A DNA stretch of 64,000 nucleotides from Bacteroidota bacterium (GTDB lineage Bacteria; Bacteroidota; Ignavibacteria; UBA10030; UBA8401). The DNA lies in NCBI GenBank assembly GCA_035506275.1, contig DATJPT010000002.1, forward strand, positions 62,001 through 126,000, in the 5' to 3' direction. Below the pieces are notes generated by a model that worked only from the letters and a program-made list of their open reading frames with translations, had not been told where the DNA came from and made no database searches. Within the stretch, counting starts at the first letter, position 1; each line of letters begins with the position of its first letter. The position numbers and the translations under genes are program-made. Shown here piece after piece: positions 56,294 through 58,990 of this stretch.

Positions 56294-56382
56294 TTACTTT
56301 CCTTCAAAATTGTGGAATTCCCCCTTCACGACTATTAAACACGCGAGCGTGTGAAGAGGTTTCATAGGCAATCCCTGGAGTC

Positions 56383-56411
56383 AATATAAATAAAAATAGA
56401 GGGGGTGTCAA
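56383..56411 (-). promoter_or_regulatory. clpC promoter
   Basis: Minus strand TTGACA (56406-56411), 17 bases, TATATT (56383-56388), near-consensus sigma-70. An inverted repeat ACACGC-GA-GCGTGT (56339-56352) sits in the leader between promoter and ATG and could be a regulator or hairpin site; no CtsR-type operator is seen. Confidence 0.8.
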
Positions 56412-56469
56412 GAAACCGAGCCAATACCGAAAATTTATCCAATTTTGGCGAATTCAAGCAAATCTCGCC

Positions 56470-56498
56470 TTGACTTTCCGCGCCGTTTTGGATATATT
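56470..56498 (+). promoter_or_regulatory. Promoter of the tRNA-like array and tRNA-Asn
   Basis: TTGACT (56470-56475), 17 bases, TATATT (56493-56498), transcription expected near 56505. It points at the first tRNA-like unit (56525) and no other promoter is visible before the tRNA, so one transcript would hold all four units. It is back to back with the clpC promoter. Confidence 0.75.
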
Positions 56499-56520
56499 TT
56501 ATCCGAAGAAATTTTTTACT

Positions 56521-56883
56521 CCATTCCGCGATAGCTCAATGGTAGAGTCCCGCCTTACAACGGCGGGATTTCGAGCCTCACCTTCGGTGTCGGCTCTCAA
56601 CATGCGGCCATCGCAGAGTTCATAAGAATAAAATTTCGCTCCATTCCGCGATAGCTCAATGGTAGAGTCCCGCCAAACAACGGCGGGATTTCGAGCCTCA
56701 CCTTCGGTGTCGGCTCTCAACATGCGGCCATCGCAGAGTTCACAAGAATAAAAATTTCGCTCCATTCCGCGATAGCTCAATGGTAGAGTCCCGCCAAACA
56801 ACGGCGGGATTTCGAGCCGCCCCCTTCGGTGACGGCTCTCAACGTGCGGCCATCGCAGAGTTCACAAGAATAAAAATTTCGCT
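56521..56883 (+). repeat. Three tandem 120-122 bp tRNA-Asn-derived units
   Basis: Units start at 56521, 56641 and 56762 (120, 121, 122 bases). Each begins with the same 27 bases as the true tRNA-Asn (CCATTCCGCG-ATAGCTCAATGGTAGAG: leader, 5' acceptor strand and whole D arm). Instead of the anticodon arm comes a segment of about 53 bases with two hairpins: TCCCGCC-7-GGCGGGA (loop TTACAAC in unit 1, AAACAAC in 2 and 3) and GAGCC...GGCTC. Then CATGCGGC returns, as in the tRNA, followed by CATCGCAGAG, where TCGCAGA can pair with the 5' strand TCCGCGA except one position. The T arm is missing. The AT-rich spacer AAGAATAAAATTTCGCT precedes the next unit. Only unit 3 differs notably (GAGCCG/CGGCTC stem). 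Confidence 0.85.
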
Positions 56884-56887
56884 CCAT

Positions 56888-56962
56888 TCCGCGATAGCTC
56901 AATGGTAGAGCATGCGGCTGTTAACCGCAGGGTTGTAGGTTCGAGCCCTACTCGCGGAGCCA
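56888..56962 (+). tRNA. tRNA-Asn (GUU)
   Basis: 75 bases with CCA encoded. Acceptor TCCGCGA pairs with TCGCGGA, D arm GCTC...GAGC, anticodon stem TGCGG/CCGCA with loop CTGTTAA (anticodon GTT), T arm GTAGG-TTCGAGC-CCTAC, discriminator G. It is last of four related units and is followed directly by a terminator. Confidence 0.97.
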
Positions 56963-57592
56963 AGAGAACCAGGTGTGGGAACTGTCGTCACCTGGTTTTC
57001 TTTTTTAAACTCCTCCCATGTTTTTCGAATTGTACCATCCCCCCGTATTAGAATTTCAAGACCTCCCGATACTTCATCTCGCTTGAAATTTGAAACGATC
57101 CCACCGAAGATTAAGTGGTTTATCCGTCTTTTTTGTTCGGGTGTATAAGTCTGGTACAGCTCGACATACTCACTCAGCATCTGCTTCAATACCGCGGGAT
57201 CTACCTTCCCTGTTTTCACTCTTTCCAACGCCTTTTCTTTCTGACGATTAGGTCCCTTAGCTCAAATCTCTGTTCTTCCAGGTCGCTGATTGCATTGGTA
57301 ATTGTCTCTGATTCCTTCAGCTTCGCATTGGCACTTAATTGCTCCACCAGATTGGCAAGCCGCTTTGTAATCTGGTCATCATTTTTTCTTAGTTGTTGGA
57401 TTTCCTTATTCAGTCCTTCATTTTCATCCTTTGAATTACCCTGCATTTGTCTCGTTACCGATTTAAGTAATTCCTCATCCTTAACCACTTGCCGCATCGT
57501 CTCTAAAATCGTTCTTTCAAGCTCATCTGCCGGAAGATCACGACTTGGGCAATGATCCTTTGTATGATGTGCTGCTTTAGAGCACTTATATT
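56899..57592 (-). pseudogene. Remnant of a large serine recombinase
   Basis: C-terminal part only. From the IS border it reads YKCSK.A.HHTKDHCPSRDLP (second half of the recombinase zinc ribbon), then DELERTILETMRQVVKDEEL and a long coiled coil (NKEIQQLRKNDDQITKRLANLV). A one-base loss in AAAGAAAAGG near 57229-57238 shifts the frame; restoring a G gives VRKEKALERVKTGKVDP. After it, LSEYVELYQTYTPEQKRRIN and IFGGIVSNFKRDEVSGGLEI end the usual protein. The frame then reads antisense through the terminator into tRNA-Asn to 56899, which is probably not original coding. The N-terminal catalytic domain is absent; the IS element at 57593 cuts the gene. Dead integrase of an element that used this tRNA end. 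Confidence 0.8.
56967..57006 (+). terminator. Terminator after tRNA-Asn
   Basis: AACCAGGTG (56967-56975) pairs with CACCTGGTT (56989-56997), followed by TTCTTTTTT. It ends the tRNA-like array transcript. Confidence 0.85.
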
Positions 57593-57632
57593 TGAGTATA
57601 TTCAGACCATCTTTTCAAGAGGAGGCAGCAGC

Positions 57633-57998
57633 ATGAACCAATCGATCAGCCCCGGAAGTATCGTCCGGGAGATTAAGCGACGGACCCGCAAGAAATACTC
57701 CAGCGAAGAAAAGATCAGAATTGTGTTGGAAGGCTTACGAGGAGAGGCAAGCATTGCCGATCTTTGCCGGAAAGAAGGCCTCAATCCGAATATTTATTAC
57801 AAGTGGAGCAAAGAGTTTTTGGAGGCAGGTAAGAAACGTCTTCAGGGTGACACGGTGCGTGAAGCCACAAGCACCGAGGTTGGGGATCTGAAGAAGGAAA
57901 ACGATCAACTCAAACAGCTGGTGGCAGAGCTGTCGTTGAAGAACCGTTGTTTTAAAAAAAGTTTGAGTGGTTTGGAGTCCGGCTCCGAGGAGCAATGA
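57633..57998 (+). CDS. IS3-family transposase OrfA
   Basis: 121 residues from ATG 57633, AGGAGG 7 bases upstream; the longer frame runs in from outside the element. HTH: TRKKYSSEEKIRIVLEGLRG, then ASIADLCRKEGLNPNIYYKWSKEFLEAG, and a coiled C-terminus (DLKKENDQLKQLVAELSLKN). It binds the element's ends and forms part of the transposase. Its TGA overlaps the OrfB ATG (ATGA), so OrfB is made by coupled restart rather than by the usual -1 frameshift. Confidence 0.9.
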   Translation: MNQSISPGSIVREIKRRTRKKYSSEEKIRIVLEGLRGEASIADLCRKEGLNPNIYYKWSKEFLEAGKKRLQGDTVREATSTEVGDLKKENDQLKQLVAELSLKNRCFKKSLSGLESGSEEQ

Positions 57999-58990
57999 GA
58001 TACAGCCAGGCGGAGAAGATGGAAATCATTCGGATGGTGGAAGACTCAGAGTTGTCAGCGAAGCAGACATTGGAGGAGCTGCAGGTTAATCGGAGCAGCT
58101 TCTATGAATGGTATCGGCGTTACCTGGAAGAAGAGTATGATGGCTTGGCGGTGAAGGCGCCTCATCCAAGACGGTTCTGGAACAGAACCCCGGATCAGGA
58201 GAAAGAACAGATCGTGGCCATAGCTTTGGAGCACCCGGAACACTCACCACGGCAGCTGGCATGCTTTATCACCGATACAGAGGGCTATTTTATATCAGAA
58301 TCGAGCGTCTACCGGGTTTTGAAAGCCTACGATCTGGTGCCCAGTCCGAGTTACATCGTCATGGCAGCATCGGACAGCTTTCACCATCCGACTTCCAGGG
58401 TCCATGAACTGTGGCAGACGGACTTCACATACTTCCGTGCTGTCGGGTGGGGATGGTATTACCTGGCGAGCATCATTGATGACTACTCCCGGTGTATCAT
58501 TGCCTGGAAGCTCTACACGACAATGGCCACAACAGACGTGAAGGACTTGTTGGATATTGCCGTGGAGAAAACCGGGATCCACCAGATCTCCGTCAAACAC
58601 CGCCCAAGGCTTCTCTCGGACAACGGACCGGCGTATGTCTCACAAGAGCTCAAAGAATATCTCCAGACCAAAGGAATGACACCGACACAAGGTGCGCCGT
58701 ATCATCCGATGACGCAGGGGAAGATCGAACGGTATCACCGATCAATGAAGAACGAGATCAACTTGCAGAAATAGTATCTCCCGTGGGAACTCAAACAGGA
58801 GATCGCTCGCTTCATCGGACACTACAACAACGAACGTTACCACGAGTCATTGGACAATGTCACGCCAGAGGATGTGTATTACGGCAGGCATCAGGAGATC
58901 GTCACACGAAGGCAACAACTTAAGCAGCAAACACTGAGGGCACGAAAACGGCATAATCTTTCACAACCAATCGCTCAAAGTATCTCTTAA
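57995..58990 (+). pseudogene. IS3-family transposase OrfB with in-frame amber codon
   Basis: The rve-type integrase core is complete up to the DDE residues: Asp in WQTDFTYF, Asp in LLSDNGPAYV and, 35 residues on, Glu in GKIERYHRS. At 58772-58774 a TAG follows NEINLQK; the same frame then continues with YLPWELKQEIARF, HYNNERYHESLDNVTPEDVYYG to the TAA at 58988-58990. Relatives read LQxYYLPWEL, so a Tyr codon (TAT/TAC) probably changed to TAG. The catalytic residues lie before the stop, but the conserved C-terminal part would be lost unless the amber is suppressed. Recent loss, since no other damage is seen. Confidence 0.85.

Follow-up and report, generated by a model that had tools for sequence, protein, structure and literature searches.

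Tandem, hairpin-capped 5′ ends of tRNA-Asn in an Ignavibacteria genome, and GIY-YIG nuclease genes at displaced tRNA ends in its relatives

The window, a stretch of 64,000 nt from a Bacteroidota bacterium of the class Ignavibacteria (assembly GCA_035506275.1, contig DATJPT010000002.1, positions 62,001 to 126,000 of the forward strand), carries a tRNA-Asn(GUU) gene preceded by three tandem units of 120–122 bp, each opening with a copy of the 5′ part of that gene. It is the only Asn gene found by Rfam among the 43 tRNA genes of the assembly, so the array precedes what should be an essential single-copy gene. The parts of the locus, in window coordinates, are as follows.

56470–56498, + strand: promoter-like TTGACT-17-TATATT, sigma-70-like, 10 of 12 consensus bases
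56520–56639, + strand: unit 1, from tandem-repeat comparison, 97% identical to unit 2
56548–56568, + strand: break hairpin (hairpin 1) of unit 1, TCCCGCC-7-GGCGGGA
56573–56596, + strand: second hairpin of unit 1, GAGCC..GGCTC
56601–56618, + strand: remnant of the remaining tRNA-Asn in unit 1, CATGCGGC plus ATCGCAGAG, from comparison with the intact gene
56640–56760, + strand: unit 2, the reference for unit identities
56668–56688, + strand: break hairpin of unit 2
56693–56716, + strand: second hairpin of unit 2
56761–56882, + strand: unit 3, 96% identical to unit 2
56789–56809, + strand: break hairpin of unit 3
56814–56838, + strand: second hairpin of unit 3
56888–56962, + strand: intact tRNA-Asn(GUU), Rfam 70.6 bits
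56962–57002, + strand: terminator-like inverted repeat of 14 nt (93% complementary, 13-nt gap) with the T-rich tail TTTTCTTTTTT

Every unit runs from the leader TCCAT through the tRNA-Asn 5′ part, two hairpins, CATGCGGC and an acceptor-3′-like ATCGCAGAG to an A/T-rich spacer. The likeness to tRNA-Asn ends after ..GGTAGAG, past the D stem, at 23 nt; beyond this break follow hairpin 1, TTTC, the second hairpin, TCAA and then CATGCGGC and ATCGCAGAG, with CGTGCGGC in place of CATGCGGC in unit 3. As read from the sequence, ATCGCAGAG, which is kept in every unit, pairs with 6 of the 7 bases of the acceptor 5′ strand. The end of the host gene is displaced and one complete gene is left. The units do not have the anticodon and T arm of a tRNA cloverleaf, and neither ARAGORN nor Rfam at gathering score calls a tRNA in them; at a lax threshold Rfam reports a 16-bit tRNA piece in unit 1. 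The Asn unit matched no Rfam family at gathering score, and Rfam gave no match to a group I intron catalytic core in the window.

A preliminary description of this DNA, made from the sequence alone, had proposed a near-consensus promoter, three tandem tRNA-like units without complete tRNA structure, an intact tRNA-Asn and a rho-independent terminator, together forming one transcription unit. The promoter, the units (56520–56882), their incompleteness and the tRNA gene all held up. The terminator did so in part: the inverted repeat and its T-rich tail are present, and a strict consensus scan, which admits loops of 3–8 only, lists no terminator at 56962–57002. A single transcription unit is the likeliest reading, as the consensus scan of 56300–57050 places a single promoter-like site on the + strand, upstream of the array, and none within the three units; over both strands of the scanned region two sigma-70-like sites were observed vs 1.0 expected from shuffled sequence.

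Minus-strand ORFs occupy 56899–57497, and one of them (56899–57228) overlaps tRNA-Asn in antisense orientation, as in a tRNA-integrated element. They look like the tail of a large serine recombinase; a Pfam search of these ORFs found nothing. Directly past this recombinase-like tail, at 57552–58774, lies a transposase pair with HTH_Tnp_1 and rve domains, presumably IS3-like.

Displaced tRNA ends were counted among the 44 ARAGORN tRNA genes of the source genome (G000) and among genes fetched from G001, which belongs to the same genus, G003, G010 and G031 (33, 34, 40 and 25 genes with at least 120 nt upstream, respectively; these four sets are incomplete). An exact copy of at least 12 nt of the gene's own 5′ end lies within 400 nt upstream of 25 of the 176 tRNA genes in the five genomes, as against 2 of 6208 when the 5′ ends of the genome's other tRNAs are sought instead. 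None was found downstream or on the reverse strand of the 176 genes, for some of which the downstream stretch is short. Copies of the own 3′ end mirror this arrangement, being present downstream of 6 of 122 genes, upstream of 0 of 176, and in 0 of 3242 controls. The displaced ends are specific to their own tRNA, and a hairpin sits at the break: a perfect one with at least four GC pairs, starting no more than 8 nt from the break, accompanies 21 of the 25 5′ copies vs 2.9% of 5000 random windows. On visual reading, the stems at the other four are imperfect or GC-poorer, and all six downstream 3′ copies are preceded by a palindromic stretch, one with a long loop, a count made by eye.

The genes with 5′ copies in G000 are Val(tac), Val(gac), Gly(tcc), Arg(tcg), Asn, His, Met and Ser(tga); Val(cac) has a copy of 11 nt, below the 12-nt criterion. 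Besides Asn, tandem arrays were seen at Val(tac) (five units of 59–60 bp at G000:C8:363190–363560, locus L084, the largest array seen in the source genome), Gly (three units of 89 bp), His (two of 116 bp), Met (two of 67 bp) and Val(cac) (two of 64 bp, at a contig end). Presence and copy number of the units are patchy between relatives. Sequences and folds reveal an acceptor-3′ remnant that is clear in Asn and includes G-U pairs in His; none was seen in Gly or Val(tac), and a conserved general cloverleaf remnant was rejected on this ground.

Pooling 40 5′ copies and 26 3′ copies, we found that 18 of the former, from 11 isoacceptors, end right after the D-loop sequence GCTCAR (once GTTCAG), of which six come from loci found by a pattern demanding that junction, leaving 12 of 34 without them. 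Likewise, 12 of the 26 3′ copies, from 10 isoacceptors, start right after the T-loop sequence GTTC (one each GTCC and GTTCG). Across tRNAs the D and T loops are the most widely shared parts, so a nuclease that recognizes them could target many different tRNA genes. No ORF lies in any of the 18 D-loop-break units, in which copy and tRNA are at most 141 nt apart, so this class might arise otherwise. Other breaks flank the anticodon arm, which by visual reading is replaced by the palindrome in Gly(tcc) of G000 and Pro(tgg) of G001. Two ORF-bearing 5′ units break near the 23 nt of the window units, namely Arg(tcg) of G043 (22 nt) and Ser(tga) of G050 (24 nt). The break hairpins vary widely in sequence between tRNAs, the Pro example being TGGCGCC..GGCGCCA.

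A search of ten genomes with PF01541 (GIY-YIG) returned 82 matches. We examined 69 of them, leaving out ten frames of at least 500 aa, mostly of UvrC-like length, and three others. Single-domain GIY-YIG genes no more than 450 nt from a same-strand tRNA gene make up 37 of the 69, at 33 different tRNA genes, and no detected tRNA lies within that distance of the other 32. Half of the ten genomes had been chosen once such ORFs had been seen; the remaining five (G000, G001, G003, G015 and G031) have 32 matches, 18 of them tRNA-adjacent. At 33 of the 37 tRNA-adjacent loci an end of the tRNA is present as a displaced copy of 12–70 nt, and where the copy is on the ORF side the ORF lies between the intact tRNA gene and the copy in 27 of 30 cases. 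Both a nuclease and a displaced copy were found at tRNA-Asn in G010, G050, G059 and G036. In G001 an Asn-type nuclease near a contig start (L334, left out of the tRNA-adjacent count) has two 3′ fragments of tRNA-Asn after it, each with a hairpin in front.

The lineages of the nucleases match the identity of the tRNA, in different genera and families alike, most clearly at Pro, Arg, Asn and Gln. In a tree built from 58 of the 69 proteins (60–170 aa; 11 were dropped for length), which is based on few columns and includes near-copies, a single group with 39 members (drawn open; support 93) takes in 33 of the 34 tRNA-linked rows. Amino-acid labels change eight times on this tree vs a mean of 19.9 for shuffled labels, with 0 of 200 shuffles as low; four of the changes involve Ser and two Leu. 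The tie between lineage and target is seen in the relatives as clustering by tRNA identity, rather than as cleavage specificity. Three of the proteins had no match in PHROGs and seven GIY-YIG proteins none over the cut-off in NCBIfam, whereas a comparison of one of these proteins with 50,697 phage records gave two matches, at 38% identity.

The nuclease gene that characterizes a homing element is present at the relatives' tRNA genes and absent from the window's tRNA-Asn. None of the five GIY-YIG matches of the source genome is an Asn-type nuclease: one is a UvrC-length frame, two lie away from tRNA genes and two at tRNA-Ser. In the source genome, two tandem GIY-YIG ORFs stand directly after tRNA-Ser(tga) (L324/L314, G000:C8:83694–84255), a gene that, with a 5′ unit on its upstream side and a 3′ copy of 13 nt on its downstream side, shows both mirror forms.

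The unit itself was searched for in 60 genomes, the source genome included, and matched in 34, mostly with the tRNA part or hairpin 1 alone. Homologous Asn units with both hairpins occur in G031, G001 and G074. The preliminary description had named homologous arrays in relatives as a test of its reading, and such arrays exist; the assembly error that it had considered is unlikely, because the units differ from one another and have homologues in these three other genomes. Structure prediction, which it had also recommended, found the three units more stable than shuffled sequence (z −4.2, −4.6 and −3.4). The covariation it had asked for proved weak: across six aligned Asn units only one pair, the last of hairpin 1, differs on both sides (three units have C-G, three A-U), and its cell count is reached in 30 of 500 shuffles.

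The pattern of hairpin 1 is present in 16 of 98 genomes of the order. Some loci from the hairpin 1 and unit searches adjoin other tRNA genes (Met, Ala, Arg, Asp and Ser), and others are in intergenic or integron-like places away from tRNAs. In G066 and G043 (L052, L067, L069, L073 and L078) a related hairpin, TCCCGC..GCGGGATTTCGC, lies in GCCTAAC..GTTAAGC sites, which we take to be integron attC-like motifs; this integron-like context was set aside, being present but not tied to the tRNA cases. At L036, where no tRNA was detected, a copy of the hairpin stands between two similar, diverged stretches of a gene region that looks kinase-like. The tRNA-Asn loci of six relatives, G001 among them, hold group I introns (Rfam RF00028, 59–105 bits; L006, L014, L015, L018, L021 and L023), and their flanking sequence suggests that they interrupt the anticodon loop.

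One unit type was scanned over 84,980 species of a named genome collection and gave 8 stretches, five of them in Bacteroidetes or Ignavibacteria MAGs (four genomes). In a Cyclobacteriaceae MAG, tRNA-Lys is preceded by three tandem units, of which one falls outside the scan pattern, and in an Omnitrophota MAG one stretch precedes tRNA-Pro (L143/L144 pair); either horizontal spread or an error of MAG binning could account for these. One stretch in a Myxococcota MAG, with no tRNA nearby, is probably due to chance. Related patterns were present in 9 of 391 genomes of a class sample, where the matches in G126 and G086 are without a tRNA and look like chance, and in 2 of 395 genomes of a phylum sample. 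The scan patterns cover the D-loop type only and understate the whole spread. A search of the open-licence PMC literature on tRNA-upstream repeats, palindromes in tRNA genes and bacterial tRNA-linked GIY-YIG genes found nothing of this form.

The predicted folds of the units reach z −6.75 at lowest, and those of Val(tac) (z −0.33), Gly (−1.32) and Ser (−1.41) are barely better than shuffles. Met, Val(cac), Val(gac) and His units adopt closed folds in which the tRNA 5′ strand pairs with its own 3′ flank, a pairing that might prevent competition between the dead copy and the genuine 5′ strand. Between related units, arms are changed on both sides in Val(cac), Pro(tgg) and Asn. Mean correct acceptor pairing was 0.93 when the tRNA was folded by itself, 0.17 when the real unit was included and 0.03 when the insert was shuffled (p 0.045); for 10 of 32 units, no more than 1 of the 40 shuffles matched or exceeded the real one, and for the window tRNA-Asn with its real unit the value is 0.0. 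Pairing of the fragment was not better with its own insert than with the inserts of others (15 of 32, p 0.44). In most of six printed long precursors, global folding paired the displaced copy with the tRNA 3′ strand, and a global folding model may be unsuited to precursors of this length. That the hairpin insulates tRNA folding from the displaced copy is a suggestion only, for which the models give mixed support.

Several known systems share parts of this anatomy. The rtT/tyrT repeats of Escherichia coli are tandem, carry a tRNA end and lie inside a tRNA transcription unit; these 178-bp repeats carry the 3′ end and lie downstream, whereas the Asn units carry the 5′ end and lie upstream. SegB is a GIY-YIG nuclease of the same kind as the other free-standing GIY-YIG homing nucleases of T-even phages. 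According to the part of its description available to us, this phage nuclease cuts inside tRNA genes at the motif RAWTSGAAC and drives tandem amplification of a tRNA locus, for which nuclease residues or activity are needed (PMC13096335). By our own reading, the reverse complement of this motif corresponds to the T-loop motif. Shared with SegB are the small GIY-YIG gene beside tRNA genes and the tandem tRNA locus; the elements described here are chromosomal, whereas SegB belongs to a phage and the available part of its description contains no displaced, hairpin-capped tRNA ends (PMC13096335). The mORFs of fungal mitochondria, as far as the available part of their account goes, insert in a host gene and supply a replacement end, so that the native end is displaced beyond the ORF; those of the Glomus and Allomyces atp6 type are mostly LAGLIDADG, with GIY-YIG in atp9 (PMC3630166). 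The nuclease gene and the native gene end displaced past it are common to both; mORFs sit in mitochondrial protein genes, and that part of the account mentions neither a hairpin cap nor arrays of nuclease-less units (PMC3630166). We file the finding as a hairpin-capped, tRNA-gene variant, itself new, of the known free-standing homing nuclease elements that displace gene ends. The window units have no nuclease and thus fail the defining feature of that family.

With moderate confidence, we interpret the window units as nuclease-less relics of tRNA-invading GIY-YIG elements, amplified in tandem. Mobile elements invading tRNA genes would leave behind displaced, dead 5′ ends such as those of tRNA-Asn. 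The full form would bring a small free-standing GIY-YIG gene and leave one complete tRNA gene, with the other tRNA end displaced beyond the insertion and closed off by a palindromic hairpin, giving two mirror forms: 5′ piece, hairpin, nuclease and intact tRNA, or intact tRNA, nuclease, hairpin and 3′ piece. Short forms as in the window, which probably descend from the full form, would consist of fragment, hairpins and spacer only and would have built up tandem arrays in the tRNA transcript's leader, a segment that RNase P should remove by the established pathway. The hairpin may have been kept because an unpaired copy would disturb the folding of the real tRNA. With SegB (PMC13096335) and the fungal mORFs (PMC3630166) as models, so far as the available parts of their accounts extend, we infer that the nuclease would cut tRNA genes and spread by homing, and that the resulting breaks would drive the tandem amplification. 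Counting against the whole are the lack of an Asn-type nuclease among the source genome's matches, the 0 of 18 D-loop-break units with an ORF, and the related hairpin away from tRNAs.

The same three observations keep a real rival in play, which we nevertheless consider somewhat unlikely: dispersed palindromes (REP- or MITE-like, TCC..GGA-YTTCGC), moved by a transposase, would land in tRNA genes and elsewhere, the survivors being insertions with a tandem duplication of the tRNA end, and the GIY-YIG genes would be separate passengers. Similar hairpins with TTTCGC, often with ..CTCAA, do occur in intergenic, integron-like and, on our own reading, coding places, which fits a dispersed palindrome family, and in several tRNA cases we read the hairpin as standing between the fragment and its continuation with no base lost. 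REP/BIME palindromes with RAYT transposases are likewise short, GC-rich and dispersed; unlike in these, as far as the available description goes, no known end tag was identified at our hairpins. Y1 transposase genes matched in 9 of 9 genomes searched; at none of the 21 loci looked at out of 47 is the gene bounded by the break hairpin, and the hairpins nearby are mostly of other kinds, with a similar one at L248 alone. The TCAA end and the missing target duplication are, as we see it, a mere resemblance to an IS200/IS605-derived MITE. One dispersed mobile palindrome was rejected as the full cause, given that the break hairpins differ widely between tRNAs and do not bound the transposase loci looked at; moreover, it leaves unexplained both the nuclease genes between intact gene and fragment and the nuclease clades that follow isotype.

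The preliminary description had offered a purpose, decoys or small RNAs, for the anatomy it described. The anatomy stands, whereas the many-tRNA pattern, the GIY-YIG genes and the mirrored downstream 3′-end copies favour debris of invasion over purpose-made RNAs. Functional structured leader RNAs, acting as decoys for tRNA enzymes or tRNA-directed nucleases or as regulators of tRNA folding, would account for 5′ copies that are upstream and on the same strand only, match their own tRNA exactly, retain the hairpin, are probably co-transcribed and, in some units, close on themselves in stable folds with arms changed on both sides. They would not lead one to expect downstream 3′ fragments, and the patchy presence and copy number, the single two-sided change in the Asn alignment with its 30 of 500 shuffles, and the Val(tac), Gly and Ser units that fold no better than shuffles all speak against them; we regard this explanation as improbable, even if the units might have some RNA function. 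Plain tandem duplication by slippage or unequal exchange followed by decay, with no mobile element, would suit near-identical units of varying copy number. It leaves unexplained the palindromes at the break, on which it was already disfavoured, the polarity of the copies (5′ ones upstream, 3′ ones downstream), and the nuclease genes in between, and is very improbable.

Returning to invasion by GIY-YIG elements, we tentatively suggest a broader, possible picture of chromosomal tRNA parasites: GIY-YIG lineages, each tied to one kind of tRNA, would split tRNA genes, often at the universal D- and T-loop motifs, spare one functional copy, cap the cut-off end with a hairpin against misfolding, and shed nuclease-less leader arrays whose RNAs may serve as decoys or give the tRNA gene immunity. 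Phages and islands are known to settle in tRNA genes, which they enter by recombinases. If the picture is true, there would be another route, in which tiny nuclease elements cut essential single-copy tRNA genes and mend them with their own sequence. It would also offer a testable origin for pseudo-tRNAs, extra tRNA-leader sequence and rapid copy-number change at tRNA loci, and would constitute a bacterial counterpart of the gene-end swaps of fungal mitochondria.
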